Shown here in pieces: positions 1 to 62,065 of a stretch of DNA of 64,000 bases. The position numbers were made by a program, and so were the translations under genes. Origin of the DNA: Deuterostichococcus epilithicus (taxonomy: Eukaryota; Chlorophyta; Trebouxiophyceae; Prasiolales; Stichococcaceae); NCBI GenBank assembly GCA_033439295.1, contig JAVTLE010000010.1, forward strand, positions 2,232,001 to 2,296,000. Reading direction: 5' to 3'. The notes under the pieces were generated by a model. It was not told where the DNA came from. It ran no database searches and was given only the letters and a program-made list of their open reading frames with translations. Positions within the stretch are counted from its first letter, which is position 1; every line of letters starts with the position of its first letter.

Positions 1-350
1 CTGTGCCAACAAGGAGCAGTACACATGTGCAGTCCTCAGTCGCAGCTCTGTCGCGGCGTTTTTCGTCAATAACTGTGGACCTCACGAAACGGCGTCCTGA
101 AAACGGCACACAAAAGCGATAGCACGGCGTCGAAGGGCAGTTTCTTAGCTCATGCATGCCATTGCACGCCCGTTCTTGCTCCTGCTTACAGCCAAGAACG
201 GCTGCTGCAAGCTTGTCCAGGCCGCCAGCGGTGTTACAGAGGCTCCACAGCTGCGTCGACAGTGACACTGGCCTTCAGTAGGCGACAAGAGCAAGTGCAT
301 CAGCGACATCGCCACCACGCACCATTGAGATGCACATGCCTGCGTGAAGG
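1..350. other. No gene recognised
   Basis: Mixed-composition sequence with no ORF I can support. It lies downstream of the minus-strand Pro/Thr-rich ORF and may hold its 3' UTR. Confidence 0.4.
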
Positions 351-6784: not shown

Positions 6785-9700
6785 TCAGGGTGGCCAGATC
6801 CGCACATAGTAGGTGCCCGCCAGCTTCTGTTCCCGGTCCTTGGTGGACTCGTGTTTGTTGATGCGGGGCCGGTAGTTGGTGGGGTCCCGCCGGAAGGTGA
6901 TGTCCAAATTCTTCAGGAATGTGTTCATGCCTGCGGACGGCGGGACCAGCGGGATGCGTCAGAGCAACACAGATTCGGCAGACGTTGTCAGGACGATGGG
7001 AGCATGCATCCCGTCTTGAGCCGACGAGTTGTCGTGAGGCTGTTGCATGCCGTGCGCAGGCAGCCTGCACATGCGCGGTGCCTGGCGGCCAGCTCGACGG
7101 CAGGCCCACGCCCCGCGAGAGGCGGCGACTCTGAACATTGCTGGTGCGGCGGCGCCCGCCCCCACACTGCCACCGACCCACAGCGCGGCCAGGCATCAGC
7201 CAGCACAGCAAGAGGCAGTCTGCCGTGCATCGCAAGTCGGGTCTCTCAAAGCTCGTGCGTGCGCGCCTGTGAGCAGCGACTGCGGCGACCGCGCCGTGGC
7301 GTTGCTGGACGGCTGCCCCTCGTACACCACTACCCGGTCTGCCAGGTAGGCCGCCATGATGAAGTCGTGCTCCACGATGAACGCCGTCTTCTTGGAGTGC
7401 ATGATGAAGCGCTTGATGACCTGCATAGCAAGCGTTTGCTGTTGCTTGGATATGAATCAGAAACTCAAAATGCCTAGCATGTGCGTCAGAAGCTTGTGGT
7501 GCACGTCGTGCTCCATGATGGAGGCCATTGCCTTGGAGTGCATGGTGAGGCGGTCAATCTCTGCGCAGAAGCACTTCATGAACAGGATCGATCAAGGAAT
7601 AACAGGACTTGAAGGAAGGTGGCACAGGATGAGATGATCAATTCGTGGGCCTCTGAGACTGCACGGTGGAGAGCCTGATGGCCTGCGGTGCAGCAGCAGA
7701 GGAGGCGTGCACGATCCAGCATCGAATGCCTTTGGCCAGGCGGGTGCACGGGCGAATCGGGCGGCATGGCGTATCCTCGGAAAGCTGTCTTCTCATATCG
7801 GACCAGCCCCAGCGTCGCCCCAAACCCGGCAGCGGCTCAAAGCAGCCCTAGCCTAGGTTGGACGCACCTTGGTGGCCGCGATGCGCTGCTCGGTATTCAG
7901 GCAGGCGGACGGGTGGTCGACGTCCAGAATGTCACAGCCGAGCCATGGTCTGGGTGCTTCGCAGAACAGGGCATGCGAAACTTGTTGCGGAAGGACTCTC
8001 GACGCGCCTTGGCGGCCACAATGCGCTGCTCGGAGTCCAGGTAGGCGGACGGCTCGTCGATGAGGTAGATGTCCGCGGGCAGGCCCAGCGCCATGGTAAT
8101 GGCCACCCGCTGCAGCTCGCCGCCCGACAGGTGCTGCACCTCCTGGTCCATCAGCTCCTCAACCTGGAACACATAGGAACAAGAGAGAACCGCTGAGAAA
8201 ACTTGGAAGAAAGCTGGTACATGTCGCTGTGAAATCTGTTTCGAGGCGTCGCCGCCGCCGCCCGACAGGCGCTGCACCTCCCGGCCCGTCAGCTCCTGAG
8301 AATTCCATTCAGAACACAACCATTGAAACATGTAACAAAGATGTTGAGGAAACAATGTCAGATTGTATGTCAATTTTGATCTCTCTCGAGATGCTGGAGT
8401 TGCCACTGCCGCCCGACAGGTGCTGCACCTCCCGGCCTGTCAGCTTCTCCTCCTCAGCGGAATCAGGCACCACAAGCACTCTGCGTCAAATTAACCAGGA
8501 GACATTCGCACACAGGAAACGTGTAGGGTCAGAGGCCGCCAAGGGGTGGAGATGCTCCCAACTCTGTAGCAACTAGTCAATGCTGGATAGGACACCTTCA
8601 CGATTGTGGGACCTCCAGGGAGGAGACAGGGGTGTGGAAACTGCGCGCCTGCATGGGGCGCATGACATGTGTGACAAGCTGCGGGCGCGGCGCCTGTCTC
8701 ATGAACATCCGCAGACACAGAAAACATCCGCCACTATGAAAACAGAAACCGTGTAGGGTGAGCGGCCGGTGAGGGACCGGTGAGGGGTGGAGGTTACTGC
8801 GGACGGCAACGCGCCTGCATGGGGCGCATGACGTCGGTGATGAACTGGGGGTGCAGGTACGCGTCCCGGATGCGCTTGTGCAGCAGGTTGCGCACGGTGG
8901 ACGGGAACTTGGGGCTGATCTTCTGCGGCTTGTAGGAGACGTTGAACTCCGGCAGCTCCACAAAGTGGTCGTCCGGCTTGAGCATGCCCGCCAGCAGCCG
9001 GATGAAGGTGGTCTTGCCTGCGCGCGTTAGCAGCACGAGCGTCAGCAGCTCATATGGGTCTGCCCGCCAGCAGGCGAATAAGGTGGTCGTGCCTGCACGG
9101 CAAGGGGCCGAACAGAAGGCATGGATGGGAGCGGCAGCTCAGCGAGCCTCATCTCCTGGCGGCTTGGGTTTGGGAGCCTTTTCTGTGTGCGGCCATTAAC
9201 GAGGCGAAGCACCAAGCACGGCGAGAGTCGGACACGGGGCTGGCCGCTGAGCTGATTGCCGCAGTGGACTAATTGCCGGCCTGCCGCCATCCCCTCCACG
9301 CCATCCCCTCCACGAGTGCTGCTGTCTTTCGACTCCAAACAAGTGCAGTCCGTGTTGTGGAGCACAGGGAAGGGCACCAATCTTGGGAGCAGCTGCGGCA
9401 TTGGACTTGAGGCCAGCTGGCGGCGCATGTGAACACACACCTGTGCCATTCTCGCCCAGCATGACAATGATCTCGGAGTCTGTGAACTCGCCCTCGTCCA
9501 CCTGCGGCAGGAGGATCGTCGAAGGGGCGTCAGGAAGGTGTCTGCTGGACAGCGCCACCTCCTGTTGGTCATCAGCCGTGACATCGGCGGTCGGCACATA
9601 GCGGGCAGCTGGCCCCTGCAGGCACAGCCCCCCGGCTCACCGACGCCGTGCAGCGCTGGGACGCCATGAAGAGGGCATGCATTACGGCATCAAGTACCCA

Positions 9701-12700
9701 CACGCACGCCGTCACCAGCGCATTCGTGTTCGGTAGCGGTGATTTTAACGCACATTCAGGCGGAAGTTGCCGAGGGTCTTGCGCATGGAGGGGTACTTGT
9801 AGCGCAGGAACTTTTTATTACTTCCGTCCTCCGCGCCCTCCGCTGCCTGCTCTGCTACCTGGAAGGGGGGACAAAGGGAAAACACGCGGATTTGTTGTGG
9901 CTGCTTTCGTGAGAGCGCATGCAGATCGCGCTCGGATTGCATCGATCTGGAGGGTTTGTGGGAAGGAAAGGAAACTTTAGATGGCATGCGGTGTCAACCG
10001 ATTGTAGCACTGCACACGAGAAGATCGGCTCATTCACGGGCATCAAGACTCCAGGGCCCTTGCATGCCTCAGCCAGGCACTGCAGGCTGTGCCTCTGCCG
10101 GCACAGTTGCATTGCGACCCGCCTCCAGAAGCGCACCTTGAAGGTGAGCGACTCCTCCCGGAACCGCATGTTCTCCGTTGGCACGAAGCCCGCCAGGAAG
10201 ATGTTAATGCCCTCCCGCACGCTGCGGGACATGACAAACAGGCAGTCCAGCATTCCGGAAGCGCAGTGTTGAACAAGGTGGGGTCCAGAAATGATGCGCC
10301 ATACACAGCTGCGCCCTGGCAGCGCACAACTCCCCCCTCCCCCCGGCTACGCAGGGCAGCCGGCCTCCGAATAAGGGAGCGACCAGCTGCCGCCCGGCCT
10401 GCCAGGCAAGTGGCCGGCTACGGTCGGGCTGTTGTCTTGGGCTTCCCCGCCCAGGGATGAGGTTAGGGTTTCGCAAGGGGCGCGCACCCAAAGGGCATGG
10501 TGACGACGCCGTAGGCGCCCGGCTTGCCGTAGAGGCAGCAGATGTAGTCGGACAGGTAGTCCAGCACCGACAGGTCGTGCTCCACCACGATGACATATTT
10601 TTTGGGGCCCAGCAGGCCCCTGATGACCTGCACAGATGACGACAGGTGTAGCATAATCAGTGTGGCCGGGTGCGTTTAGAGGTTAGTGTATGTGGTTTTG
10701 GCGACCTTCCAGGCCTTCCAGCAGCCCCCGGACAAGGCTTCTGGGCCATGCATGTGTGCATTGACAGGTCGCACTGCCTCGCTAGGACATACTTTTCTGC
10801 CCCAGCAGTCCCTGAATGACATGCGGGGGACCATGTGACCTTTGCACCGTGGGGACGGCTGGACACCCGGCTGCACAAAGCTGCCAGCGTGCCCAGACGT
10901 GCTCTACTGTTCAGCAGGCGAGCCTCCCTGGCCCCAGCAGCTGCATGCGGAGCCGGCAACACACGACGCCTGTGCACTGGAGGGGACCAGCGGAGCCAGC
11001 AGTGGCTCCGGTCGGGTCCAGCGGCAAATTATGGCGACCACGCCTTGGCGCCCTGAACCCGGCCGGCAGTCGCGGCAGTTCTCAAAAGGGGGAGCAGGCA
11101 GTGAGACCCTGAAGCCTGAAGGGCGGCAGGCGCGCCTGGGCGGCCTTGAGCCGTTGCCGCACATCCAGGTAGGAGGACGGCTCATCGATCATGTACACAT
11201 CCGCCTCCTGCGCCGCGACCACCGCGATGGCAAACCGCTGCAGCTCCCCGCCTGTAAGCGTCAGCAGCAGGTGTTAGAGCGCAAGTGACATCAAGCGGAC
11301 AAGGGTCTCTTGCGCCGTCGCCGCCGCAATGGGAAACACCGCTGCAGCTCCTCCCCTCGCCTACAGAGCGGCAGCGGCAAATAGGTGCAGATGGGAACCT
11401 GTTTTGTAAAGCCTCCATGAATTTTGATGCGCTGCCACCACCGCAAAGGCTGATCGCTGCGGCTTCCAGCCACGTGCCATCGAAAGGTGTGTTGGACATC
11501 GACCTCAAGGAAAAGAGGTCCACATTGAAGAGTCAAGCATCCAACTCCTGCGGGGTCACCACGCCAATGGCAAACTGCTGCAGCTGCCCGTCTAGACTTG
11601 GCAGCTTGACATCTGTGGAAATGGAAAAATTCGACGTGAATGGTCAGCCTGTGGTTCCTGCGCCGCGCCACAGCAACGGCACATCGCAGCACCTCCGCAG
11701 CAGCTCCCCTCCTGGTGGCGGCAGCCATGGGTCCATGTGCGGTTCTGAGGCATTCCAGTGTGTGACTTGCCGCCTTCCACTGAGGCCGCACTGCTTCCTC
11801 ACGCCCTACTACTCACGCCCACTGTGCGTTCTGGGGGTGCGCACAAACGTTCATATGGGCATTGAAACCTTGACATGGGCACATTGTGTTCACATCCAAC
11901 TCGCACCTGACAGGTTCTCCACATTGCGGTCAAGCACCTGCTCCAGATCCAGGTCTTTCATCAGCTGCGCATTGCATCCCCGCTCGTCTTTGGCATCCAG
12001 CACCTCCCCCACATTGCCCCTGCAGGAAGACACATGCCACTGGTCGGTCAGGAGCAAGACTCTCCCACCCACTTGTTGGCAGCTTGCGCAGTTCACCCCC
12101 GCTTGTGTTTGGCCTCCACCACTGTCCCCATGTTGCTGCTGCAAGGAACACAGGAAACACTCGTGATCGCGTTGGGCCTTCCGCTGCTGAGCTCAACTAG
12201 ATGTTCAGACCTTTCAGCAGATGCGCTTTCAACAAAGCTCGTTCTTGGCCTCCGGCACATCGCCGCTGCGTTGAGCACGCAGCTTGTTTCGGTCCACATT
12301 TGTGCAACATCCTCTGCCAGCCAAGGCGGGATGGCCGAGGTCGCTGAGCAGCTAGACGTCCTGCCCCTGCTCGTCCTCCACCTTTAGCACTCCTCCCGCA
12401 ATGCAACTAGCGAAGGCGAGTGCACAGCCGACGGCTGTCAGCGCAGTGACGAGGTGGCGGAATGCCAGAGCGACAGGGGGTCATGAACGGCGCTCACCGC
12501 ACGGCCTTTGGGATGTTATCCACGTACTGCGGCTTGATGATGGCCTTCAGGTCGTCCTCAAGGATCTTCTGGAAGTAGTTCTGCAGCTCCGACCCCCGGA
12601 AGTGAGTCAGGATCTCCTGCCAGTCCGGCGGGCTCTGCGCACATTGTCGCATAAGATGTCAGGGTTTTCGGCAGGGTTTGAGGTTGCTTGAGTCGTCCTG

Positions 12701-14213
12701 TTACGCCCAGGTGGTTGTAGGTGTGGATGCTGATGCCGCTGCCAACTACCATGGCAACCGTGGGCGGGGGTCGCTGTCAGCTCCACAGCAGGCGCCGAGC
12801 AGACGAGCGGTGGCATCGTGCTGTGCAGCCTTCGCCTTCCCAACTGAGGCGCGCCTGTAGCCGTGATGGCAGGTCACAGGCATGCAAGTGTTGTAGCCCG
12901 CGCGGCCTGCTTGCAGCTGAATCCAGTTCCAGGCATGCAGTTCAGCGCCTTCCCGGCTTGCCACGCTCGCCACAGCCCGAGCAGGCGGCGTGCGCTTGAG
13001 ACGCGGCAACCCACCGATAGCCGCCCCAGGTTGGGTTTAAGCTTGCCCGCCAGAATCTTCAGGGCTGTGGACTTGCCGATGCCATTGGTCCCCACCAGGC
13101 CCAGCACCTGCCCCGGCCGCGGCACCGGTAGCCTGCAGCAAGGGCAGGACCGCACACTTGAAACTGCCATCTTTGGGCACTTGCATGGTGCCCCCCAGAA
13201 GACAAGGCTCCACGGCAGCCTGCGGCACAGCCGGCCGGCACAGCCGCACGCCTTGTGCATTGTGCGTGCATGAAGCTTCACAGCCTTGTGGGAAGGGCCA
13301 TGGCAGCTGCCGGACAGCATATGTTTCGGTTTGACAGGCCGAGTCTCTGCCGCAATTTATAGCAGAGCACAGGGCCGGACCTTTCTCCTCGTGCAGAATC
13401 CGCACATTCCAGCCAGATGTACCCATACCTGTGCAGCTTGAAGGAGTTGACGCCATATCGGTGCGTCGTCTCCTTCGCCAAGTTCCGCGGCAGGTTGATG
13501 ATGAGGATCGCGTCAAAGGGGCATTTCTGCGTCATTCCAGCGACAGTATCAGGGTCCAAAGGCTGAGGACACCACCCGAATGCTCACAGCAGCCGATTGC
13601 GGAGAGCTGCTAGTGGCAGCCTCCTCAGCACCTCGAGCACAACTGCATGGCTCCGGACGCTGGCGGCAGGACGGCGCCACCAACCTTTGCTCAACACCTA
13701 CCTTCACGCAGATGCCGCAGCCGATGCACAGCTCCTCCGATATGAATGCGGCCTTCGAGGCGGGCGTGACCTCAATGCATAGCTTCCCTGCAGGGGGGGC
13801 ACCAGCTTGCGCCGTGAGGATGGAACGGCGGGAATTGGCATGCCCATTCACCCATGCACAATCATGCAGACCATGTGCGAATGTACATCCGAGAGCTGAT
13901 GCGCAGCAGAATAAGAACATAACGCTCACCGATCTTGACGACGGGACAGCTCTTCTTGCACTCCTGTCGACATTTCTTTGGCCTGCACCTGTGGTTTCCG
14001 AGGAACACATTGGTGCGTGCTTTACTGGACATTGATTTTGTCCCTCCATTGTGTGAAAAACATCCAGCTGTGTACGCTTTGTGGATAGGTCACGGGAGTG
14101 CATTCGAGCTTGGTTGCATACAGGCCCACAGACCTGTCCTGGTTGACGATAGCAATACGTGTGAGCGTCTCTCCTTCCGGCGCGTCCGCTGTGACCTTCT
14201 TCTTGGGCGGCAT
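6785..14213 (-). CDS. ABCE1: ABCE1/RLI1 ribosome-recycling ATPase
   Basis: The twin-ATPase iron-sulfur protein splits post-termination ribosomes with Pelota/eRF1 and acts in ribosome biogenesis in the cytosol. Sixteen exons join in perfect phase to 616 aa: 14213-14134, 13982-13930, 13787-13702, 13526-13429, 13132-13015, 12634-12498, 12019-11907, 11251-11136, 10627-10488, 10221-10137, 9858-9754, 9501-9441, 9017-8815, 8163-8008, 7420-7267, 6930-6785. The Fe-S domain has both cysteine sets ([20 protein letters not shown]). NBD1 has Walker A GTNGIGKS (Lys about 126), LSGGELQRF, Walker [11 protein letters not shown] and VVEHD. NBD2 has GENGTGKTT (Lys about 399), [19 protein letters not shown] and VEHD. 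The start is the ATG before a basic MPPKKK segment. Introns after exons 8, 13, 14 and 15 use GC donors. The C-terminus ends YYVRIWPP rather than the usual acidic Leu-Asp-Asp. Its introns carry decayed exon copies, listed separately. Confidence 0.97.
7504..7567. repeat. Echo of ABCE1 exon 15 5' edge
   Basis: This direct copy of 7363-7427 (about 75% identical by eye) lies in the intron upstream of the real exon. On the minus strand it still reads [13 protein letters not shown] against the exon's [13 protein letters not shown], and an AG acceptor-like site is retained. Confidence 0.75.
7861..7931. repeat. Echo of ABCE1 exon 14 3' edge (Walker B)
   Basis: This is a direct copy of 8001-8071 at a constant 140-bp offset; I count 50 of the first 60 positions identical. 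On the minus strand it reads [17 protein letters not shown] beside the real [17 protein letters not shown]. The echo ends in AAG|GTGCGT, a canonical donor, while the real exon uses AAG|GCGCGT. Confidence 0.85.
8257..8298. repeat. Echo 1 of ABCE1 exon 14 5' edge
   Basis: This copy of 8119-8160 is identical at 37 of 42 positions. It encodes [14 protein letters not shown] against the real [14 protein letters not shown] and lies in the upstream intron (13). Confidence 0.85.
8408..8449. repeat. Echo 2 of ABCE1 exon 14 5' edge
   Basis: This second copy of 8119-8160 is also identical at 37 of 42 positions, 151 bp from echo 1. Two independent decayed copies of the same signature-motif segment therefore sit in one intron. 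Confidence 0.85.
8641..8705. repeat. Echo of ABCE1 exon 13 3' edge
   Basis: The first 20 or so bases match 8810-8832 almost perfectly, then similarity falls to roughly 60%. Adjacent intron sequence is also repeated: GTGTAGGGT followed by AGGCCGCC/GCGGCCGG and GGGGTGGAG occurs near 8522 and again near 8754. The duplicated unit therefore spanned the exon-intron border. Confidence 0.7.
9062..9108. repeat. Echo of ABCE1 exon 13 5' edge (P-loop)
   Basis: This is a direct copy of 8986-9033 at a 76-bp offset in the upstream intron. The minus strand keeps an AG acceptor followed by GCACGACCACCTT, matching the real GCAAGACCACCTT. A one-base deletion then breaks the frame. Confidence 0.8.
9287..9314. 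repeat. 14-bp tandem duplication
   Basis: The unit CCATCCCCTCCACG occurs twice, back to back, inside ABCE1 intron 12. Confidence 0.85.
10758..10824. repeat. Echo of ABCE1 exon 9 5' edge
   Basis: This copy of about 10565-10630 lies in the upstream intron (8). Shared blocks include TTGACAGGTCG, GACATA.TTTT, CCCCAGCAG and TGA.GACATGC. The segment corresponds to the H-loop exon. A weaker possible second copy lies near 10890-10950. Confidence 0.65.
11307..11355. repeat. Echo A of ABCE1 exon 8 5' edge
   Basis: This is a direct copy of 11205-11251 in the upstream intron, roughly 80% identical with small indels. The minus strand still reads EELQRC where the exon has GELQRF. Confidence 0.75.
11545..11591. 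repeat. Echo B of ABCE1 exon 8 5' edge
   Basis: This copy of 11205-11251 is about 79% identical. The minus strand encodes [16 protein letters not shown] against the real [16 protein letters not shown], then meets a stop. Confidence 0.85.
11655..11716. repeat. Echo C of ABCE1 exon 8 5' edge
   Basis: This more decayed copy contains CCTGCGCCGCG and GCAGCAGCTCCCCTCC. The minus strand reads GGELLR and then shifts frame to CAVAVARR. Confidence 0.65.
12079..12146. repeat. Echo 1 of ABCE1 exon 7 5' edge
   Basis: This direct copy of 11961-12026 reads [13 protein letters not shown] on the minus strand against the real [13 protein letters not shown], then meets a stop. It lies in the upstream intron (6). 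Confidence 0.85.
12203..12276. repeat. Echo 2 of ABCE1 exon 7 5' edge
   Basis: The minus strand reads EAKNELC, a stop, then [10 protein letters not shown], aligned to the exon's [18 protein letters not shown]. Intron 6 thus holds a second decayed copy. Confidence 0.8.
12342..12410. repeat. Echo 3 of ABCE1 exon 7 5' edge
   Basis: The minus strand reads [13 protein letters not shown], a stop, then LLSDLG against [20 protein letters not shown]. It is the third copy in one 478-bp intron. Confidence 0.8.
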
Positions 14214-15671: not shown

Positions 15672-18600
15672 GCTGCCTTCAAGCGCCGGTGGCGCTGCAT
15701 CCGGCCGACCGCCCTCTGCCTGCGCCTCTGGCTGGCGGTCGGACCTGCCGCGGCCGCGGCTGCTGCGTCCGCCGCCGCCGCGCGTGCTGCTGCCAGTTGG
15801 CGCCATCACGGCGCGCGCGCCCGCGACCGCGCCCGCCTGGCACATCGCCGGGCCCCGGGAGGAAATCAAAGTCCTGCTGCCGACCACCGCGCCTGCCACG
15901 GCCCCGGCCGCCGGCGCCTGGGCCGGCGACCGCCGTCAGACGGTTCCAATCCTCCGCAGCGTCGCCGCCGGCTGCCGCCGCGTTGCCGGCCGTGGCGCTG
16001 GAACCGTCACCGGCACCCGCCGCTCGCTCCTCAGGGTGCTGCCCCGTCTCTCCAGGTGCCGCAGGCCGCTCGTGCTGCTGGCGGCCGCGACCGCGGCCGC
16101 TGCGCTGACCGTCGCGGCCGCGGCCGCCGCGCTGCGCTCGCGGCCCCTGCCGCCGCGGCCGCCCCGCTGCGGCGCGCCTCTTGCCGGCTGCAGCCTGCGG
16201 TCGGCAGGGGAAACACCAGTGGATGCCAGGTGCCGAAAATGACAACAACTGCAGTTTGTGTGTGCAGCTACCCATGGGCAGGCGGCCACAAACAAGCGTC
16301 TGAGCACGCTGAAGCTGAGCTTGTCAGGTTTCGAAAGACATGCTGGCATGCATGCAAGGAGCCGCAGGAACTTCCACAGCAGCAGCCAGTGGCGCTGTGC
16401 CATGTCAACCTCTGATGTGAACCACATCAACCTGGAAAAATTGAAGAGCGGCCTTAGAAAGACTGGTAGATATCAGGGCAGAAAGGGACAAGGACAAGCA
16501 AAAACAGAAGCACCAGTCCTGCTGCAAAGCGCCATAGCCGGCACCGCCAAACTGCGGTAGGCACACGGAAAGCAAAGACGAAGAGGGAGAAGAAAGGGGA
16601 AGAGCAGGAAAGGCACCTGTCCTGCTGCGCGGCGCCATAGCCGGGCACCGCCAATTCCCGGAAGGCGTCCGCGTCGCGCCGCCGCGGCTTCACTGGCACG
16701 TCCTCCCAGCCCTCGGCCTCCTTCCCGCTGCCTGCTTCCGCCAGCGCCGCCACTTCCGCCTTCCCCAGACCCAGCGCCTCCAGGTCGGACGGCTCCACCG
16801 CCATCGTCGCCAGCTGCCGGTGCAGCTCCGACGCATATGCCACCGGTGCTGAGATTTTCCCAGAGCCGTCGGAGCTCTCCGCGGAGCCCCCCTCGGAGCC
16901 CGCGGCGTACGTGCCTTCGGAGTCATCAGACCCAGCTGCTGCGGCGGCGGCAGCGGCCGCGGCATCTTCCTGCCGCCGCGCCTGCGCCTGCGCCGCAGCC
17001 TCCGCAGCCGCCTCGGCGGCCTGCCGCTGCGCCTGGACGACCACCAGGCGCCGCTGCCTGCGATCGCGGGGTTGAGTTATGGGTTCAGACGGTTGCTTCG
17101 AACTATTCAGTCTGTTTGTGAAGTCAATGGCAGCCCTTGCGACTGCAGGTTTGCATGCCTCGAGCCGCTCAGGACGTGCGTCGCCAGTGGTCCAGAAGCC
17201 CACAGTGCAGCTGGCAGACAGGCGTCAGTGGCAGGTAGCTGGCTGCCTGGATTCGGCACCGGAGCTTGTGACGCATGGTCTGGCCGTAATGGGCGCTCAC
17301 CAGGTGTCGCGCCGCCAGTGGCTGCTGCCCTCCCCGGTCAGGGGCCAGCAGATGGCGACCGGCTCCGCGTCCCCCGGCTGGCTATTCCGCCCGCCGCCGC
17401 CGGCATTCTTCGTGGCCAGCAGCGGCGGCAGCCGCGCACCGTCCGGCGCCCCGGGCGGGATGGTGTCGATGACCAGCGCGGTGATGTCGTCGCGCGGCTT
17501 GCGCGTGCCCTTGGCCATGGCGATCTGCGCGGCACGGGGCGGACTGCGGCTGACGAGTGTTATTTCATCACCCACGGTGGTTGTCTGCCTGAGGACTTGA
17601 TCTGTGCAAAGGGCTGCCACAGAGGTCTCCATTGTATTGCGTTCCCTCGGCCCCCGCCCTCGTGCATGCGACAGCCAGCGCTCCTCTGTCGAAGGACTCG
17701 CTTCTGATGGACTCTCTCTACATCGTTCTTCCGGGCAAGCCTGGGAAGGTTCCCACGGCCCACCGGAGTTCAGCCCTTGTGCCTGCGCGCCGCACCAGTT
17801 GGCAGTAGCCTTGAAAGCGGACAGCCGGCGGGATGCCTCCACTTTTGATGAAGCACCCGCTATCGACCGCCACAATCCCCGCCTAACTCCGTGGATGCAT
17901 TGGACCCACCAGCTCGGCAGCAGCCTTGGACGCGGGCAGCCCGCGCACGTGGTGCAGCGCCGCCTTGGGGCTGACCATGTCCCACAGGCCGTCAGACGCC
18001 AGCAGCAGCCGCCCGCCGGTGTGCGGCAGCGTCACCTGCAACCGGCAACAGAGCCCTGAATCCTCAGAAGCCATCCGAGGCAGCAGCAGCCACCTGCCTG
18101 TATCCAGCAGCGTGACCTGATGCGGGACCGGCGCTGCTCAGACCAAAATGCCTCCTTTCGCATCGCCTCAGCGCTAAATGCATACGTACCTGGCGCGGCG
18201 GTGCATGGGCGCCTGTCGACTTCGCCACTGCTTGCTGTCTGGACAACACGGGGAAGGCGACACAAGGGAGATTTGGTCACGACCCGTCAATCAACAATTG
18301 CCAGCGGTTGGAAAGGCATTGGCAGTTTCGCTGCGGAGCGCACCTGGCGGACTTCGGGCGCACAGGTGGCCACGGAGCCAGCGGAGGCATCACCGATAGT
18401 GCGGCCCATGGCCAGGCCACCAGGCCACACCCGCAGCGGCCCCACAGGCTTGCCATCCACCTGCACCGTCGGCAGTGGAGCTCAAGCCTCTGGTTTCGCT
18501 GTTGCTTGTGCTGTCCTCGTCATGGGTGCAAGCAAGGCAACAACATAGTGGGGTCGTCAAGGAGCATCTGGAGAGTTGCGAGGCAATCGAGCACAGGCAG

Positions 18601-20065
18601 CACGTGCGTGGGGGCGTGTGCAGCGCCTGAGTACATGGCGTAGCGTGCGAGAAGTGGGACGACCCAGTGTGCTGATTGTGCGAAACGCGTGTGAGATGGA
18701 GGCAGCAGCCACTGTTTCCTTGTATTCTCTCTTCTTTCTCTAATGTACCTCGGACTGGGCGACCTCAGCGCCGGCAGCGAGGATGCGCTCCTGCTCTGCC
18801 TTGCTGTCGTCCAGCCGGTGGTTGCCGCTCACCTGAGTTTCACACCGCACAATCCTGAACCTCCGAGCACACGCGCAACGCATCAGGGGCAGGATGGACG
18901 TGCACTGCTGCTGTCGAGACAGGTGGTACCACAAGTGTGCACGTCGACCGAAGGCAGAGCATGCCGAGCTTGGGAAAGACATCTGCAACAGGCCGGGCAT
19001 TGCGGCATCGCGCATGCAGTGGTTTCTGGACCTACACACTGCACATGTCTCGGTGGAGGTCCACATCCTATCAAACATGCGGGTCTCTGATCACCGGTCT
19101 GGCTGAAGCATCCAAAGATGATGAGAAAAGCACCTGCACGACCTCGGAGCCGGTGTCCAGAAATGCCAGCGAGTCACCGACGGAGGCGACCAGCACCTCC
19201 CAGCCCACAAGCACCGCCACCGTTGCCGTCGTGCCCGACTCCTGAAACATTGCAGGACAAAGAGTCTGACTCGGGCTGCAAACGGGCATGTCAAAACTTC
19301 AAACCCTCAATCGCCGCTCGCTTCAGTCAGGTGCAGTCGCCGCACAGCGATGTCAAGCGCCTCAGCTAAAAAGAGGTGAGCCAAGACGTGCAAAGAGCAC
19401 GTGTGCTTGCGTGGATGGACCGGGAGACGAGGTCAATGTAGACCTGACTATGAGATGCGAAGTCCTGCTCGGTGGCCATGAACGCTGCGGCCAGCGCCGC
19501 TGGCAGCGCCGCCGCGAGCTTGTCCGCATCGTCACAAGCCGACAGCACGGCTTCAGGGATGCCCAGCCTGGCGAGCTCGGCGCGCAGCGCGGCGGGCTCA
19601 TCGTCGGCCGCTGCGCCACTGGTCAGGTCCCCGGCTGCGGGGCTGTCGGCGTCTGACTTTGCCAGTGCGGCCTGCAGCCGCGGGAGCAGGTGCCGCGAGG
19701 CGAAGGTGGCGGCCTGCTTGCCGCCGTGGCCGTCGAACACGCCGAAGAAGGAGATCTTGCACGGCCCTGCACGTAGGCAGCACAGAAGCCTCAGTGCCAC
19801 CATCCTGCTCTGCATGCTGTGTGGGTCATTGGCGGGTGGGCCCATACTGTCTGCACACATGCGCCATGTCACGAGCTTCAAAAGATTTCCGCGCCCCTGC
19901 CCTGTGCCGGTTGTGTAGAGGACAGCAGCAGCGCTGCATCATGCGCTTACCCGCCGTGCCGGGGAGGGTGCAATCCGTGGACGGCTGCTGCGACCAGGCG
20001 TCCTCGCCCTTGTCCAGGAACTTGCCCAGGGAGTACTTGATTTGCAACAGGTCCGGGTCCGCCAT
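14712..20065 (-). CDS. PP2C-type Ser/Thr phosphatase with RGG/Gln-rich tail
   Basis: The catalytic part is a metal-dependent PP2C: 20065-19951, 19766-19444, 19241-19134, 18832-18749, 18460-18344, 18035-17910, 17524-17301, in continuous phase. Metal-site and core motifs are FFGVFDGHGG, ESGTTATV, VASVGDS, GPLRVWPGGLAMGRTIGD, LLLASDGLWD and PRDDITALVID. The pattern resembles the plant subgroup around Arabidopsis At1g47380. The chain continues in phase into 17057-16617, a coiled Ala/Gln/Arg and acidic Ser/Gly segment, and then into 16194 to 14712. That last part is low-complexity: RGG/GRGRG boxes, a run of about 13 Gln, and many Q/P repeats. The frame changes there (near 16194 and about 15850), so an unseen short intron or draft indels are likely. 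RGG and polyQ tracts suggest RNA or condensate association; that is inference. A 5' exon before 20065 is possible. Confidence 0.85.
15631..15671. repeat. CTG/CAG trinucleotide run (polyQ)
   Basis: An uninterrupted CTG array of about 13 units encodes Gln on the minus strand in the PP2C tail. It is likely to be length-polymorphic. Confidence 0.85.
16509..16560. repeat. Echo of a PP2C-tail exon 3' edge
   Basis: This direct copy of 16612-16662 lies in the downstream intron and is roughly 84% identical with one gap. The minus strand reads GYGALQQDW against the real PGYGAAQQDR. Similarity continues into the purine-rich intron side, so the repeat crosses the donor site. Confidence 0.85.
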
Positions 20066-21151
20066 GGCTGCCGCCCTGCGTTTGCATGAGTCCCCAACAT
20101 GTGCCAGCCCGCTGCGCGCCATACCCCATTCAGCAAATGGTCGACAGGCCGGCGCAGATGTGCAGGCCGCGTGACGCAGAAGGAACGTGGATTTGCCAGT
20201 CGTGCAGCCTCGGAGCACAGCCTGGCCAGCTTTGCAGCCCAGTCGAGGGCAGCGTTTTGGTTCCTCGATTAGGCCAGGCAAGCAGCATCGTGATGCTCGC
20301 AGCAGCACGCCCAGCATGCATTGTTGAGCGTGAGCAGGTCCTGCATATACTCCTATTGCACGGAAGCGAGGCTGGACCTGAGCCCGTGTGTATAGATATC
20401 TGCTAGATTTCAGCGTGCTGCAGCAGCGTTGCACCTGCAAGACGTGAAGACCTGTCACGCTAGCGCCATGCCTGGCTGCTGAACATGCGCTTCAAACGCA
20501 TTCTGACAGCTGAGGCACCAATCTGGCATGCGCACAAATGCGCAATCCGCTGCCACGACAGAACGTTCGTCAATCACTTTGCCTCAAAGTCGAAAACTCC
20601 TTCATCCCCCTTGGTTTTCAAGCGAATCCAGTAAACTCGAATGGGGCTTTGTCCTTTGTGTCCCAGCCTGACGTCACTCTTGCCCATTCGTGTGTCATTC
20701 CATTGAATAGCCTCAACAGAAAAACAAGTACTGTAAGGTGCGATACTCAGAGATAGTCATTGTCTTCGGTACTCTGATCGAGATCGACGCTGCAGTCACC
20801 TGTACGGTCCTCGTAAACCGTGTGCGCGTTGAGGTCGGCAGCATCAGAGAGCAGGTGCACTCGCAAAGTAGGTCATGTACTTCACCAAAAGCAGTCCTGC
20901 CGTCTCCAGCGTCGATTACTTGCCTGTAGGGAGTCGCCGCAGAGTGCATACTCAGTGGAGGCTATGCTTGCTTGCTGCAGTGGCTGCGCACCGCGAGGAA
21001 TGAGTATCAACAGCAAGTCTGCGGTCAGGAGCAATTGCTTGGCTGCGTGGTCTTCAATCAGTCGCGGTGTTCGATCCTGCTGTCCCGTTTTGCGCCCAAC
21101 GAGCTTGGGCCTGGCTACAGCTTCTGACGGATGGCATGACTATGCTCCAGG
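20066..21151. other. Divergent intergenic region, PP2C / dienelactone hydrolase
   Basis: A 1.1-kb spacer between divergently transcribed genes, so a shared promoter region is likely. No exon was recognised, though an upstream non-coding exon for either gene is possible. Confidence 0.5.
20669..20676. promoter_or_regulatory. CRE/bZIP-type palindrome TGACGTCA
   Basis: This is the second perfect TGACGTCA I noticed in the window, and it also lies in a 5' intergenic region. It sits between PP2C and dienelactone hydrolase. Confidence 0.3.
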
Positions 21152-35472: not shown

Positions 35473-37194
35473 TGCTGCCGACTCTGTCAGGGGAGGCTAT
35501 ACCCAAAGCTTGTGGTGCCACCGGCGTCATGTGGCGCAGCTCAGACGGCAAGCAGCATGCTGCTTGAACGGTGCCGGCAGGTGGTGCGTCATGTGGCGCA
35601 GCTCAGACGGCAAGCAGCATGCTGCTTTGACGGTGCCGGCAGGTGGTGCGTCACACTGGCGATCGCCGCGGTGACGGCGATGTACTTTGCGCGCCTTGCG
35701 GCCCTGGAGCGGGCGGCATTTGCAGCCAGCCCCTCAGAGGCGGCAGCGGCGCGCTGCGGCTGCTCTGACTGCCGGAAACGCGGAACCTCCGTGCACTGGG
35801 CGGTAGGCTGGCTGAGGAAACACAGCAGATGCCACTGTGTGCTGTCAGTGTTTTCTCAGGCTGGATGACCTTCGCCAGCATGCGAGGCTGTCAGCTTCAG
35901 CTTCAAATGTCCCGCAAATCTACTGGGGCTGAACTGAATGCTGCGTCGCAGCCGCCGTAGCTTCCACCAGATGCGGCAGCACGCACATTATGAGGGGCTT
36001 ATGCTGCTGCGGGGGGACGCTCCAATCTGACCTGCCGGACTGATCTTCTGTGCATGAGGGTGCCCCTGCAGGAGCTTTTGATGAGGTTCTTTCCTGATGC
36101 AGGTGCTTCTGTACTCTGCTCTCGCCATTTGGGAGCCGTGGCAGATGGCAGGCGCGCCCGCCCCTGTGCCCGGCACTGCTGCATTACTCGGCCCTGCCAA
36201 TCGCTCATTCTGATGGCTCGATGGCTCTCGGACGCCAGCAACCGTGCTGACAACGAACTCCCTCTCCGTTCAGCAGGGAGTGGCCAGATGTGAATCGCCG
36301 GTTAGTGTCCTCACAAAGTTCGATGCTGCACAGCAGGTGTTCACTTGGTTAATCTGACCATCACAGCAGTGGTATTCAACGGTAGTAAGAGCGGCGCCTG
36401 ACAACCTGATGTCCTTCCACTCACGGCTCTGGCTGGCAAGGGGCGGTCGCAAAGGGGACATGCCCTGCCCTGCTGCGGAAGGTGGGCCTGTGTGCGCTGT
36501 CGTGCCTGCTGGTCAGGATGCACCACACCCGACATCCCTGCGGCTGCAGCCCCACTGCAGGGTCTGTCTGCTGGCGGGGACGCCTCAAGCAGCGACTTGG
36601 ACAAGGTCACAGTCTGCATAGTGCAGGCGGTGGGACGGAGCTGAAAAGTGTTGACACCGAGCGTTCTAAGTTTGCATGTTTGACAGCCCCAGGCAAGCGC
36701 GCAATGACCGGGTGCTGTCCCTCACGATGCAGCGACGTGATCGCCGTGCACAGGTAAGTGGCTCGAGGTGGTGACTGGGCACGCACCGTCCGCCGCTCTA
36801 ATGCAACGATCACAATTCACTGCATCAAGGTCGCACTGTCCGAGTGCGCTTCTCTCATGTTCTTGCAGGCGAACATGCGCTCCGGTACACACTAGGTGGA
36901 ACGCGCGTTGCGTAAGGTAAGGTCAGGCACTGATACGGCCCTGCGTATCTTCCAGCAACCTGGTAGTAGAACAGCATCTCATCAGCAGATCGCACCTTTG
37001 GGTATCAGGCAGGCAGCCCGTGCTGACTGCATGGCGGCATGCGAGAATGATGTCGCCGCTGCCGCTTGCTTCGCGATACGCAAACGTTCAGCGACTGTAA
37101 ACCAGCCTAGCGATCTGCCGCAATGCAGACATCTGTCACAGCACAGCCCACACAACAACGATCGAAAGTAGGATTGAAGTGTTTTTAGGGTGTG
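35473..37194. other. Mostly unassigned, with one possible extra membrane exon
   Basis: About 35655-35820 has an exon-like hydrophobic frame that may belong to the preceding gene. The rest (about 35.9-37.2 kb) shows no supported coding sequence. The final part should include the promoter of the NLP-type regulator. Confidence 0.4.
35524..35651. repeat. 62-bp tandem duplication at an exon edge
   Basis: The unit beginning GCGTCATGTGGCGCAGCTCA occurs at 35524 and again at 35586, with only two differences (CTTGAACGG versus CTTTGACGG). A third start at 35648 matches for six bases and then enters the hydrophobic exon-like frame. This looks like a recent duplication at an intron-exon junction. Confidence 0.95.
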
Positions 37195-53373: not shown

Positions 53374-56308
53374 ATGAGCAGCCGACAGCAGGAGCTTCCG
53401 CATGACTCACCTCCGGAAGACCGGCTGGCGGAAGCGAACAAGAGCAGGGTCGACGCCGTCTCAGGTGATCCTGGTGTACAGTGGCTGGCTGGCGGCCTGT
53501 CCGCTGATAGGCCTGACAAGGCCAGTTGTATACTTGCATCCTGCCAGTTTCCTCGTCGGCCTCGACGGATTCCCGCATGCTTCCTCACGCAGGCGAGCTG
53601 CGCTGCCTGGCGTGCGGTAAGGCGCTCCCCGACCGCTGGAAGCTGGCCCAGCACCTGAAGGACGCGCACGGCGGCACTAATGCGCCACCGCCGCAGCTGG
53701 CGGCGGTGCCGGCTCGGCCGCCAGCAGGCCGCGCCGGCGCCAGCGCGGCCTTCTCCTTGGGCGACCTGCTGGCGGCCAAGCCGCAGCGGGGCGCGGCGCC
53801 TCCCCGCACGGCAGTGCCGGCCGTGACGCACCGCCATGCAGAGCCTAAACCGCGCGGCGTGCAGGGCACGCTCAGGGTGGGTTCCACCCTTGCCAGTCTG
53901 TGTCCGGTGACACAGCCCGAGATTGCTGGGCAGCGTTGCCCTGCATCCACTCAGCGCCTGAAGCAGGTCTTTGGCCAACATGTCACGACCACAGGGCTTG
54001 TCACACTGCTTGCTGGTCAGCCTCACGGTTCGTCCATGCGGACCCAGCCCTGCACACCTGCGCTGGCAGATGCCGTGCTGGCAGGGAGCACGGCGGTGCT
54101 TCACTCTTTCTCCTCTCCCCCCGCATGCAGCTGAACATGGCGGAGGGCGTGCCGGCTGAGGTCGCTGTGCTGACCGGCACGGAGCGCCCCAGCGCGGCTC
54201 GCAAGCGGCCCACCGCCGTCAAGCGCGCTGTGCTCAAGGCGCGGTCCGCCCGGGCCGCCGCGGAGGCGGTCGACGCGGCGGACGCCAGGGTGGCGGCGCT
54301 GGCAGCGGCGCGCGCAGCGCACGACGACGTGCGGCGCCAGTACGAGGTGAGGCGGCCGTCCCGGTGATGCGCATGTAGCAAACGGTGACATGCCCGTGCT
54401 GCCTGCAACAGCTGCCGCTGCCGCACTGGCTGGCGGGGCCCGTCGCTGCTGGCGGCCTCCGAGCCAGGCCGTGTGCTGCCGCTGCCAAGGGAGCAGTCGC
54501 ACAAATGCATTCAGTTCGGCACAACTGCATGGGGTCTGCGCCCTGCTGTGGCTCGTTCGTTTCAGCCATCTCGAAATGTATGCAAGCATGGATGGGCGAG
54601 TAGAAGTCGAATGTCACTGTGAGGCGGAATGGCGAGCCCTCTCGAAATAAATGCGAGCATGGTAAAATGTATGTGAGCATGGATGGGCGAGCAGAAGTCG
54701 AATGTCACTGTGAGGCGGAATGGCCTGATGCGATGCATCCTGGTCTGCTCTGTGCCGCAGGCTGCCTGCCGGGCAAAGCAGGAGGCTCCAGCGCCGCAGG
54801 CCAACCCCGCCATCTGCACCCAGGTGCGCATGCCTGGAAAGCCCTCCTCACCCAGTCCTGTGTATGCACACTGGTGCGCTCCTTTTCAGTATGTGCCCTC
54901 CAAGGCTGTTGCCTGTGCGTGGGCATGCAACCTTCCGACTGCATGCTTTGACCCCGGAGAATATAGAGGACGTGGACTCAGCGTTCACTCAGCGTGTTTG
55001 ACCAGACAAGCCGCCCCATGCAAAACTGTATCAGAAGGTGTGTTGCTTGACTGGAAATTTCCTCCATGATCCCGCAGCCAACTGGGCTATTTCTTCGCTG
55101 CAGGTGCAGGTCCTTGAGCTTGCCCTGGCAGAGGCGGCCCGGCGAATCGGCGAGGCAGCGGCGACAGCGGAGGCCGCGCAGGATGCCGCGGCGCGTGCCA
55201 CCGGCGAGCGCTGGCGCATGTGGACGCTGCCGCCGTCCGACGCGGCTCTGGAAGCCCTGGATGACGTGACCAACGATGAGGTGGAGGCCCTGGGGCCACA
55301 ACTGGACATGGCGGGTGCCTCGGGCGCGGCGGCGGCACCGGCTCTGGCAGCAGGACAGCCGCCTGCGCCGCCGGCGGCAACAGAGGCAGAGGCAGCCCCG
55401 GCAACGCCGACTGCGGCTCTGCCGGCTGCGGCATTGTCGCAGGCAGAAGGTACCGGTGCCGCACCAGCGGCAACCGCCCCGCCGGCGGCAGCGGGCGGCG
55501 CCGCCCTCGGCGCAGCCGTGCCGCCCACGGAAGCAGCGTGCCAGCCTGAGGGGCTGCGGCCTGTGCCCAGCGGCGCGGCAATCGGCCCCGCGGATGATAG
55601 TAGCAGCTCGGACGAGGACACGGGCCCGGGGCTCTCGGGCTTCCAGGATGTGCTGTCCTCCTGGGCGGTGGCTGCGGCCATTCCGCTCAGGCCTGCCGGC
55701 CAACCAGCAGGGACGGCGGACGTTTGCAGCGGCAGCTCACAGGCCGCACAGTCCCCAATGCCGCTGGGCCAGCCGCAGCAGTCATCTCGTCCTCCGCAGC
55801 AGCCATTTGGTGGCGCACCTGCCGCAGCGCGTGCCGCAAAGCCGCCCGCGGCGCCGGGGGCCCTCGGCAGCAGCGTGGCGGCGCAGCGGGACCTGGCCGC
55901 CATGAAGGCGAAGGGCGGCTCTTCGAAAGGCTCCAAAGGCTCCAAGGCCTCTCGAACCAGCAGCAACGACTCGTGCGTCGCCAACTGGCTGGTCGCCTCC
56001 GAGGTCCGCGCTGCCAGCGCCGCCAGCGGCGGCGCCGCCAGCCGCAGCGCTCGCTGGAGGCCGCGGCGCCAGACGCCTCGGCGCCGGAGGAGGCAGCGGC
56101 GGCGGCACATGGCGGCGGGACAGACGGCGAACAGCAGCGCCGGGCGCAGCCGCCGCCGCAGCCGTTTGCGGTCGTGGCGGCGGCCGCCCCTGACTGGCTG
56201 GCGGGCGGCAGCGACAGCGAGGAGGAGGGCAATGCCACTCGTGGCCTTGACGCAACGAGCTGGGTGAGAGACTGCTTGTCGTTGTCCGCAAGACACATCG
56301 TGAACTGA
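53374..56308 (+). CDS. C2H2 zinc-finger protein with coiled-coil region
   Basis: Exons 53374-53464, 53593-53876, 54131-54346, 54761-54823 and 55104 to about 56263 keep phase until the last. Residues about 31-55 carry a C2H2 finger (CLACGKALPDRWKLAQHLKD ending in AH: C-X2-C-X12-H-X4-H). Later exons are rich in Ala/Arg/Glu with coiled-coil character (AVLKARSARAAAEAVDAADA; LELALAEAARRIGEAAATAE) and then Ala/Pro/Gln-rich disorder. Within the last exon the likely frame changes near 56050; its length (1160 bp) is not what phase requires, so a draft indel is likely. Read through the TGG|GTGAGA donor at 56263, it would join in phase to the SBP2-like exon at 56523, so these may be one gene. If not, translation ends at 56308. 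Confidence 0.6.
54574..54723. repeat. 91-bp-period tandem repeat in an intron
   Basis: A 59-bp block starting AAATGTATG and running through AGAAGTCGAATGTCACTGTG occurs at 54574-54632 and 54665-54723. A partial third copy (AAATAAATGCGAGCATGG) lies between them. Copies are over 90% identical, so the duplication is recent. Confidence 0.92.
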
Positions 56309-59500: not shown

Positions 59501-60335
59501 TGGCGCCCCAGGTCAGCCCGGGGCCTCTTGTGCGGTCTGCTGCTGTCCCTGCCAAGGGGGTTGCCGACCGCCTCCCCTGCCTTCTGTCCCTCCACCTGGC
59601 GCCGCTCCTGTCATGCACAGGGAGGCAGCCTGGACGGAAGGAGTTGCAGTTGCATCCTGTGGCGTGGTCCCTCCAACTCGACGCTCACCTGCAGGCGCGG
59701 GAGCCGCAGATCCAGCAGGCTGAGGCGCCGCTGCAGCGGCTGCGGCGCGATGGCACGCCGGTGGCGGCGCCGCAGCAGCCGCTCCTCCAGCCGCAGCAGC
59801 CGCTCCTCCAGCCGCAGCAGCCGCTGCAGCCGGCGCCGCAGCAGCAGCCGCCGCGGCGTGCGGCGCCGACCACTGCGCAGTTCGGCAGCCCGCCGGGCGG
59901 CGCATCGCTGCTGCAGCCAGGGCGCCCGCNGGGCGCGGCGCAGCTGCAGGCTGTGGGGCAGCCGTCGCCCGCTTGGNTCGCCGCTGCGACGCAGCCGCAG
60001 CCCCACCGGTGGGCGCCGCCGCTGGCGCCGCCGCTGGCGCCGCCCACGGCCCACGACCGCAGCGCCGGCATGCCGCACATCCCAGCCCTGGGCGCCGCCT
60101 ACGCCCGCACGGCGGCGGCGGCCGCTCCGTCGCTGCTGACGGGCTCCCCGCTGCGCTGGGAGGCCCCCGCCGCGGTGGCCCGGGGACTGGGGCCCTACAT
60201 GGCGCCTGTGCCGGGTCCCCCGCAGGGCAGCCCGGAGCATCTTGAGGCTTGCAACGCGCAATTTCTGGCGTCGGAGTATGCCTTCCGCTTCGGCACCGTG
60301 CCGCCGCACCTCGCCGCAGAGGCATACCAGCAGGC

Positions 60336-60380
<45 letters not shown>

Positions 60381-62065
60381 NCTGGATCAAATGCAGCTGC
60401 AGCAGGTGCAGGACCAACTGCAGCAGGAGCAGCTGCTGCGCCTTCAGCAGCAGCGCCAGCAGCAGCTCGGGTACGGCGCCGCAGCGCTGCTGCCGGGCGC
60501 CGTGGTGCAGCAGCTGCTGCGGCAGCGCACGGCGGCGGCCGAGCNGCTCGAGCAACTCGGGGCCGCCGAGGCTCAGGGCCGGCTGCTATTCGAGATGCAG
60601 CTGGCGCAGCAGCGGGCCGACCTGGCGTCGCCCTGGCCGCCGACCGGCGGCTCGCATCACGGGTCCCACCAGGGCTCGCACCACGGGTCCCACCACGGGT
60701 CGCAACAGGGGTCGCCGCCGCCGTCGGCGGCGACCTACACCGCCTGGAGGCGGAGGGCCGCCAGTGGTCCGCGCCGGTGGCGATGCCGCGGCGCGGCAGC
60801 AGCCCGGCGGGCCTGCCGCTGGGGCGGCAGTCCTCTGCGCTGCCGGGGCACCCCAGCGGCAGCTCTGGCTCGCTGCCACGGCGGCGCAGCGACCCCGCCG
60901 CCGGCGGCGGTGGCGGCTGCTTCGATGGCGGCGACTTTGATGGCGGCCAGGCATTTGCCGCCGCGGGCGAGGGCCTCCCTTGCGTCGCCAGGGAGCTTGC
61001 AGGAGACGGCGCAAGCACCCAGGACGGCGGCCACCAGCTACAAGGGGCCTTTCCTGAGCAGCCAGATCCATGCGCCGCGGCCGGTGCCGCACGTGCAGGC
61101 AGCCTGTGGACTGAGCAGCGACAGCAGGGCCTGCAGCCGGCGTGGCAGCTGCAGTCGTTTACTCGCCAGGTCTCGGCGCCGCCGCTGCACCACGCACGCC
61201 ACCAGTTGGCCGCCGACGCGCTGAGCTCCACGGACCAGGAGATCAGTCTGCTGCGGCCGAGCAGCAGCTTTGGCGGCGACCTGGCGGCCGCCGGCGGGTT
61301 CGGACACCGCCGCTCGGCATCGGGCGCGCCTCTCAGCGGTGGTGCCGGCGGCGCCGGATCCGGCTCCCCACCGCTCAATCCGGCCTCCGCCCGCTGGCCG
61401 CCGCCGCACCCCTTCGAGGCAGGCAGCGGCCAGGGCTGGGCGGCGGGCCTGTCGGGTGGTGACCCCTTTGCCGCACCTCCCGCCGCTCTTGGTGGGGCTT
61501 TCTGCTCCTGCACTTCTATGTCTTTCCTTTCCTTCACTTTGCAGGCTTCTTTTCCGCCCTGTCCTTCCGTCCTTTCGCCTGCCGCTTGCGCTGTTGGCCG
61601 ACACAGCACATGCATGCAAGCTGCTGCACCGCAACTGGTCGCAGTGTGGCAGCTAATCTCACCGCTATGCTCATCTCCCTTCTTGAAAAGGAACATCCTC
61701 AAACAAACAGGCACAGGCATGGGGTTGTTCAGAACAGTCTGGCACTCTGCGTAGGCCTGCCGCGCCCGGGGCTGTGGACGGTGCACTCCGCACCGGGGCC
61801 ATGCTCCCCGGGCATGGACCATGATGCAGCGGTGGCGGCGCCTCGCGACGGCGCCGGCACGTTCGGCGGCAGCTACGGGCTGCTGGCCGGCGGCGACGCC
61901 GGCGGCACCGGCGGCAGTGCCGGCGGCGACGACTTTCGGAACCTGAGCGGCCTGTGGCGCGATGACGGCCCGGCCTCCGTCGCCGTGGTCTCGAGTGCCA
62001 GCGACTGCGGGCTGCCGGGCATGCCGGACTACTCCTTCAACCCGTTTTCCGACCAGCGCGGATGA
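56523..62065 (+). CDS. SBP2: SBP2-like L7Ae-family RNA-binding protein
   Basis: Exons: 56523-57258, 57481-57747, 58311-58450, 58813-58987, 59356-59511, 59695-61491, 61755-62065. Exon 2 has a U1/matrin-like zinc finger (FVCELCSVRVSGTQNLAQHI then ASARH). The L7Ae RNA-binding domain spans exons 3-5: APRKRLVSGLREVAKWVRVG, ARAVVVAPNIEPVEGEAGLS, RERGVPVVFALSRKRMGQIF and MSAIALLDVSGADAAFAELV. This is the arrangement of SECIS-binding protein 2 and its plant homologues, which bind kink-turn RNA; in animals SBP2 recruits the Sec-specific factor to selenoprotein mRNAs. I do not see the SECIS-incorporation motif, so a selenium role is unproven. The C-terminal 700 residues are low complexity (QPLLQPQ repeats, polyQ, GSHHGS repeats) and disordered. 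Exons 2 and 6 need frame slips near 57600 and 60720, and four N bases lie in exon 6, so the consensus is imperfect. Confidence 0.85.
58991..59016. repeat. Short telomere-like TTTAGGG tract
   Basis: Three degenerate TTTAGGG/TTAGGG units directly follow a splice donor. A two-unit CCCTAAA copy lies at 31198-31210. They are too short to be a relic chromosome end with any certainty. Confidence 0.4.
60337..60380. repeat. CAG run (polyQ), interrupted by N
   Basis: About 14 CAG codons in the SBP2-like tail, ending at an N at 60381. The true length is unresolved. Confidence 0.85.
60652..60714. repeat. Gly-Ser-His repeat tract
   Basis: Direct repeats of GGGTCCCACCA/GGCTCGCACCA encode GSHHGS/GSHQGS units. 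The apparent frame slip of this exon lies just after it, consistent with a sequencing problem in repeats. Confidence 0.8.

Follow-up and report, generated by a model that had tools for sequence, protein, structure and literature searches.

Direct copies of exon edges in introns of ABCE1 and other genes of Deuterostichococcus epilithicus

In the potato RdRp gene, one tandem duplication crossing an intron-exon boundary is described as having made a new intron (PMC4974935). This is the closest published case that we found to the pattern reported here, in which the introns of an algal gene hold worn copies of the edges of their neighboring exons. The gene, ABCE1/RLI, occupies positions 14213..6785 (minus strand) of a 64-kb stretch of Deuterostichococcus epilithicus DNA (contig JAVTLE010000010.1, positions 2,232,001 to 2,296,000; hereafter the window), part of a 46.8-Mb, 21-contig genome. 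Its product scored 755 bits against the NCBIfam RLI equivalog (cut-off, 469), and its best PDB chains carry the name ABCE1. As in the potato gene, a direct tandem duplicate of the 3′ side of an intron and the 5′ side of an exon would be involved, within one gene. However, the potato account concerns one recent event that yielded a new intron, whereas here the events would be many, old, and often multi-copy, and would have affected introns already present in several genes; no intron is shown to have arisen anew.

Other described systems share parts of the pattern. In the Rogers model of tandem duplication of AGGT-containing sequence, presented with ATP2A1 in the same paper (PMC4974935), the protein is likewise unchanged and the extra sequence is spliced out, but the new intron there comes from exon sequence, whereas here only pieces within longer introns are exon derived. 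New introns of Daphnia contain internal direct repeats ascribed to staggered double-strand breaks (PMC4202315). In both systems, introns are proposed to have grown through local direct repeats, but the repeats that Daphnia introns share with an adjacent exon measure 4-12 bp, whereas the copies here measure about 25-92 bp, usually at 90-150 bp spacing, in introns not known to be new. Tandemly duplicated, mutually exclusive exons (PMC9013439) also make exon sequence recur in a neighboring intron, although they are described as alternatively used, unlike the partial edges without coding constraint seen here. Introns of Chlamydomonas and Volvox are reported to carry tandem repeats that are denser near intron-exon junctions and are apparently repeats of motifs (PMC3887541), and the text on introns, exons, and repeats in the Coccomyxa genome paper makes no mention of exon copies (PMC3446292). 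Among the matches listed from open-access titles and the beginnings of abstracts, we found no description of multi-copy exon-edge echoes, as we call these intronic copies; the subscription literature lies mostly outside that coverage, and they may be described elsewhere. The kind of event is known, and the echoes represent a variant of it that occurs in several genes of this genome.

Exon-edge copies in ABCE1 and chaperonin-family introns

The edges of ABCE1 exons were compared with their adjacent introns in 30 tests, with further copies sought after masking the first and Gumbel p-values taken from shuffles of each intron. Thirteen intronic copies of adjacent exon edges were detected at p<3e-6, together with two weak ones (p 3e-3 and 5e-3), and 6 of the 15 introns contained them (Table 1). 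All 15 copies were in direct orientation. In the ABCE1 stretch as a whole, we counted 12 direct repeat pairs versus 0 inverted ones (score ≥24, within 600 bp), in agreement with the initial annotation of this DNA, which had described every copy as direct. Its list of at least 12 intronic segments aligning to ABCE1 exon borders was matched exon by exon: the two copies of the exon 14 start, the single copies of the exon 9 and 13 starts, and those of the exon 13 and 14 ends were all recovered. Some counts changed. Two of the three copies claimed for the exon 7 start were strong and the third only weak; the three claimed for the exon 8 start were joined by a fourth, each at p<3e-6; and the single copy claimed for the exon 15 start was accompanied by a weak second one at offset 262. 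Near-identical tandem copies of the minisatellite kind were limited, within 6785-14213, to one array with a 14-bp period reported by Tandem Repeats Finder (TRF).

The arrangement of the echoes follows a rule. We scored 80-nt exon edges against introns at a threshold of ≥18 in a main set made up of ABCE1 and 12 chaperonin-family loci; the gene finder had been trained on Pfam chaperonin matches plus the ABCE1 exons, and the set mixes Pfam-matched exons with exons known from the gene finder alone, in the same loci. The 5′ edge matched the upstream intron in 17/151 tests and the 3′ edge matched the downstream intron in 9/151, whereas no match was obtained when the 5′ edge was paired with the downstream intron (0/151) or the 3′ edge with the upstream intron (0/151), with the reverse complements (0/151 and 0/151), or with another intron of the same gene (0/169 and 0/169). 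The rule pairings thus gave 26/302 and the six control pairings 0/942. This contrast bears out the proposal that exon 5′ edges recur in the upstream intron and 3′ edges in the downstream intron, and it speaks against the possibility, raised with that proposal, that alignments to a gene's own introns would be no better than controls. With whole exons, the counts were 17/155 upstream versus 1 reverse-complement match and 11/155 downstream versus 2; when introns of other genes were drawn 20 times per row, the highest score was at least 18 in 6 and 8 of the 155 rows. Empirical p-values of ≤0.01 were reached in 9 and 6 of the 151 rule tests, and in 1 or 2 of each control; we relied on raw score counts instead, because true introns in the control pool blunt those p-values. 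The exon-edge pattern is real, follows the rule, and extends beyond ABCE1.

The echoes were also anchored at the exon edges. Anchoring was judged by hits scoring ≥20, while the echo set used for flanks and decay had been selected for scores of ≥18, for complexity, and for lying near the edge; anchoring and offset counts exclude the window's other predicted genes, which are dominated by low-complexity coding repeats. All 16 upstream hits started at most 27 nt from the exon start (4.2 expected), and 9 of 13 downstream hits ended at most 27 nt from the exon end (3.7 expected). The distance from copy to exon fell at 90-150 bp in 24 of 33 cases (median, 129), compared with 17% expected under uniform placement, and the arrays showed fairly regular steps, with offsets of 104, 219, 340, and 449 bp at exon 8 and 119, 255, and 387 at exon 7. 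Detection may explain part of the lower limit of these offsets, as may the requirement that a functional 3′ intron end fit between the exon and its copy. Larger units are scarce, apparently because of the process itself. Echoes accompany intron growth: across ABCE1 and the chaperonin-family loci, introns with an echo had a median length of 441 bp (n = 20) versus 232 bp for those without (n = 130; p 2e-6). Upstream echoes outnumbered downstream ones by 25 to 12, a difference (p 0.047) too weak for a claim of acceptor or donor bias, and the offset remainders (14/10/6) are given with no claim of a frame effect.

The copies bear the marks of decay that had been predicted for them. In 31 copies aligned to their exons, mismatches at codon positions 1, 2, and 3 numbered 93, 104, and 110 of about 531 each, and this evenness indicates that the copies lack coding constraint, in contrast to mutually exclusive or tandemly duplicated exons, whose copies would be held by such constraint. 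An in-frame stop occurred in 4 of the 31. The initial annotation had stated that several copies include the splice site; this holds for the 8 of 16 upstream copies tested in which the AG was kept in strict register, which is no more than the per-base identity of ~80% predicts. At the copy of the exon 14 end (7861-7920), the donor-like AAG/GTGCGT stands against AAG/GCGCGT at the real exon (slash, junction), the copy being the more standard splice site.

The idea that ABCE1 is special does not survive comparison with other loci, since the chaperonin-family loci and a further predicted gene within the window show the same pattern. By the criterion used for the length and anchoring counts, an echo was present in 15 of 135 introns of the chaperonin-family loci and 5 of 15 in ABCE1. 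ABCE1 is a rich example, at the rich end but not alone. One chaperonin-family gene, L034 (G000:C16:612501-622000), has echoes in 4 of its 12 introns and is about as rich as ABCE1. Among less reliable predicted genes (those of the window and six other loci), 6 of 77 introns had echoes. Reverse-complement controls also scored in the window's other predicted genes (5 and 6 of 41 at ≥18), being raised by low-complexity coding sequence.

Origin of the copies

The echoes probably derive from old, repeated tandem duplications of roughly 120 bp across exon-intron junctions, the exon side having been selected and the intron side having decayed. Pieces of ~90-150 bp straddling a junction would have been duplicated in tandem, several times in some introns, with splicing staying on the outer junction, i.e., the last acceptor or the first donor. 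The inner exon fragment would thereby have become intron and started decaying, while selection would have preserved the true exon edge. In each old unit the exon half, in which only one side decays, would still be recognizable, whereas the intron half, decaying on both sides, would fade about twice as fast, and the outcome would be introns longer by one or more units and carrying worn copies of the neighboring exon edges. Direct orientation, edge anchoring, and the upstream/downstream rule are all expected under such a process, because splicing can harmlessly remove only a copy that lies toward the intron. Together with the regular spacing, they support the initial annotation's proposal of repeated tandem duplication with one copy kept as exon. 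We infer, for each event, tandem duplication of an entire junction; we also infer that intron length grew through duplication and that old events predominate.

Several observations weigh against this interpretation. The matching intron halves that it predicts were recognizable in only 5 of 29 cases (p<0.05), with a mean z of 0.96 (standard error, 0.30), and homology often stops 0-16 nt from the splice site. No similarity was detectable in the intron flanks of three copies (in L033, L034, and L042) that align at 84-87% identity over 46-51 bp. Simulations of young duplications (d 0.1-0.2) showed the intron half in 88-98% of cases, and thus the events, if they were tandem duplications, are not young ones, which would have kept it. 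The observed mean score (27.9) was higher than that in the simulation fitting the intron halves (23.4), and young-looking echoes were scarce, with 3 of 30 scores reaching 40 compared with 31-32% under a constant rate. Five of seven comparisons between array spacers did not exceed z 2.3, and the spacer adjoining the real exon in L037 gave z 0.16. Finally, longer introns offer more room for matches, and the difference in length alone is not causal.

A neutral simulation of junction duplication with d 0.3-0.4 and an indel-to-substitution ratio of 0.2 gave an identity of 0.79, a length of 46, a z of 0.89, and 21% over z 2.3; the corresponding values for the observed echoes were 0.80, 52, 0.96, and 5/29. 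The simulation is compatible only with old events, in which indels were frequent and each copy had taken roughly 0.25-0.4 substitutions per site, and the few recognizable intron halves would fit such an age without proving it. The full duplication unit would accordingly be seen only in part, namely in the youngest case, L035, where 92 bp of a 115-bp unit aligns at 90%, and in the two of seven array spacers that align above z 2.3 (the intronic copies of L037, z 3.9, and the ABCE1 exon 14 copies, z 2.8). Near-identical long-period tandem pairs were few: at the settings used, TRF reported a single one in 219 kb once repetitive coding sequence was set aside, and self-comparison added a second. Duplications seem to lie mostly in the past, or young ones seem to be removed by selection against duplicate splice sites. 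Young tandem duplications do occur outside predicted exons of the window, at 35524-35653 (62 bp, 97%) and at 54564-54724 (~91 bp, 95%; self-comparison pair 54574/54665), and they suggest that the same or a similar process still takes place.

Alternatively, template switching or recurrent conversion might have placed in the intron only an exon edge with a few bases of its splice site, the intron half being absent. We consider this unlikely but not negligible, as it would readily account for homology ending so close to the splice site, for matching intron flanks in only 5 of 29 cases, for the unrelated flanks of the three copies at 84-87% identity, and for the simulation's exclusion of young tandem duplications. 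Yet random copying should yield inverted copies, of which 0/302 were seen, and copies of exon interiors, whereas none of the 16 upstream hits and only 4 of the 13 downstream hits lay off the edge; the regular arrays and the two aligned spacers suit tandem units better, and a tandem model with older events roughly fits the summary statistics. A more specific version, in which a mechanism not so far known copies or homogenizes, genome-wide and in direct orientation, only 30-90 edge bases and the splice-site bases to a place ~120 bp away, appears to us doubtful. Selection on the copies themselves is improbable as well. They could be functional pieces of duplicated exons (alternative or poison exons, or splicing decoys) that persist while the surrounding introns saturate, which is how copies and flanking introns mostly behave, and both the AG kept in register in 8 of 16 copies and the GT donor that replaces the GC of the real exon in the copy of the exon 14 end could be read in this way. 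However, the even distribution of mismatches over codon positions leaves no sign of coding constraint, the AG retention does not rise above what the per-base identity leads one to expect, and the copies span only parts of exons.

Introns might also have been gained through duplication of exon sequence containing AGGT, and would then themselves be exon copies. As described (PMC4974935), this model likewise predicts that upstream introns repeat exon starts and downstream introns exon ends. It is nevertheless very improbable here, since single introns hold several copies in arrays, and instead of introns that are exon copies, with the echo running from the donor, we found 24 of 33 echoes 90-150 bp away in introns with a median of 441 bp. 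There is next to no chance that the pattern is an accident of the composition of a GC-rich genome: the window does contain low-complexity GC-rich matches, and the reverse-complement controls in its other predicted genes score as given above, but for the main set this explanation is refuted by 0/942 control versus 26/302 rule comparisons. Introner-type or other shared mobile elements were also considered; when the spacers and flanks of 31 echoes were compared with the analyzed loci, only short, weak matches between loci were present among the matches listed. The finding is real, and tandem duplication across the junctions is the best available interpretation of it.

Gene models and other features of the window

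The ABCE1 exons and their copies are listed in Table 1. By protein alignment, three ABCE1 introns out of 15 seem to have GC donors (AG/GCGCG), namely those that follow exons 8, 13, and 14 (11136, 8815, and 8008). Since GC donors made up 16% of the 201 donors in gene-finder training, a figure that is possibly inflated, GC-AG introns may be common in D. epilithicus.

The predicted gene at 16617-20075 (minus strand), which by a motif resembles a PP2C phosphatase, also has echoes. In addition to the one listed in Table 1, a second echo pairs 16613-16666 with 16510-16562 close to the predicted end of an exon. Chunked blastn self-comparison of the window gave many low-complexity matches in GC-rich coding stretches. 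The region 59600-60600 is a glutamine-rich coding stretch with CAG runs, and bases other than A, C, G, and T appear as X in the translated frames; the window holds nine bases read as N. Elsewhere in the assembly, contig C21 carries photosystem genes, its PsaB matching PDB photosystem I chains throughout, the best of them from green algae; by these features the genome is very probably that of a green alga. An ABC_tran match on the same contig might be a plastid cysA, in which case it would hint at a trebouxiophyte.

TABLE 1 Positions in the window of ABCE1, its exons with intronic copies, and the copies
Feature	Positions	Strand	Identity	Offset (bp)	p	Remarks
ABCE1/RLI gene	6785..14213	-				16 exons in gene-finder model; exon translations
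Exon 7	11901..12019	-				source of three upstream copies
Copy, exon 7 start	12080..12136	-	77%	119	1e-8	
Copy, exon 7 start	12206..12264	-	73%	255	2e-7	
Weak copy, exon 7 start	12338..12404	-	61%	387	5e-3	
Exon 8	11136..11251	-				source of four upstream copies
Copy, exon 8 start	11290..11357	-	72%	104	2e-7	
Copy, exon 8 start	11428..11471	-	77%	219	3e-6	
Copy, exon 8 start	11538..11593	-	79%	340	3e-9	
Copy, exon 8 start	11656..11696	-	81%	449	3e-6	
Exon 9	10482..10627	-				
Copy, exon 9 start	10758..10820	-	70%	193	1e-6	
Exon 13	8815..9017	-				3′ end by protein alignment at CAG/GCGCGT; model reached 8811
Copy, exon 13 start	9061..9094	-	89%	75	6e-7	
Copy, exon 13 end	8644..8688	-	82%	166	1e-9	downstream intron
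Exon 14	8008..8163	-				3′ end by protein alignment at AAG/GCGCGT; model reached 7982
Copy, exon 14 start	8256..8297	-	90%	138	1e-12	
Copy, exon 14 start	8408..8454	-	85%	289	4e-12	
Copy, exon 14 end	7861..7920	-	83%	140	7e-15	downstream intron
Exon 15	7234..7420	-				model; protein alignment puts 3′ end probably earlier
Copy, exon 15 start	7505..7552	-	81%	141	1e-9	
Weak second copy, exon 15 start	7652..7684	-	73%	262	3e-3	
Copy, start of predicted exon 17910-18035 of another window gene	18065..18119	-		81-82		pairs with 17983-18038

Echoes and the growth of introns

Chlamydomonas and its relatives are described as having conspicuously long introns, with a length-driving mechanism that is likely ancient (PMC8226300). 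Should echoes be present there too, they would offer a direct handle on the long introns of that group. In ABCE1 and the chaperonin-family loci of D. epilithicus, echoes occur in 20 of 150 introns, which are about 200 bp longer at the median. As the exon copy is held by selection, each duplication of a junction would leave a readable and roughly datable trace after the intron has decayed, and the same scan could be applied to any genome to estimate the share of intron length that comes from local duplication, its timing, and the size of the unit. Exons would in this way keep a record of intron growth that has been lost from the introns themselves.
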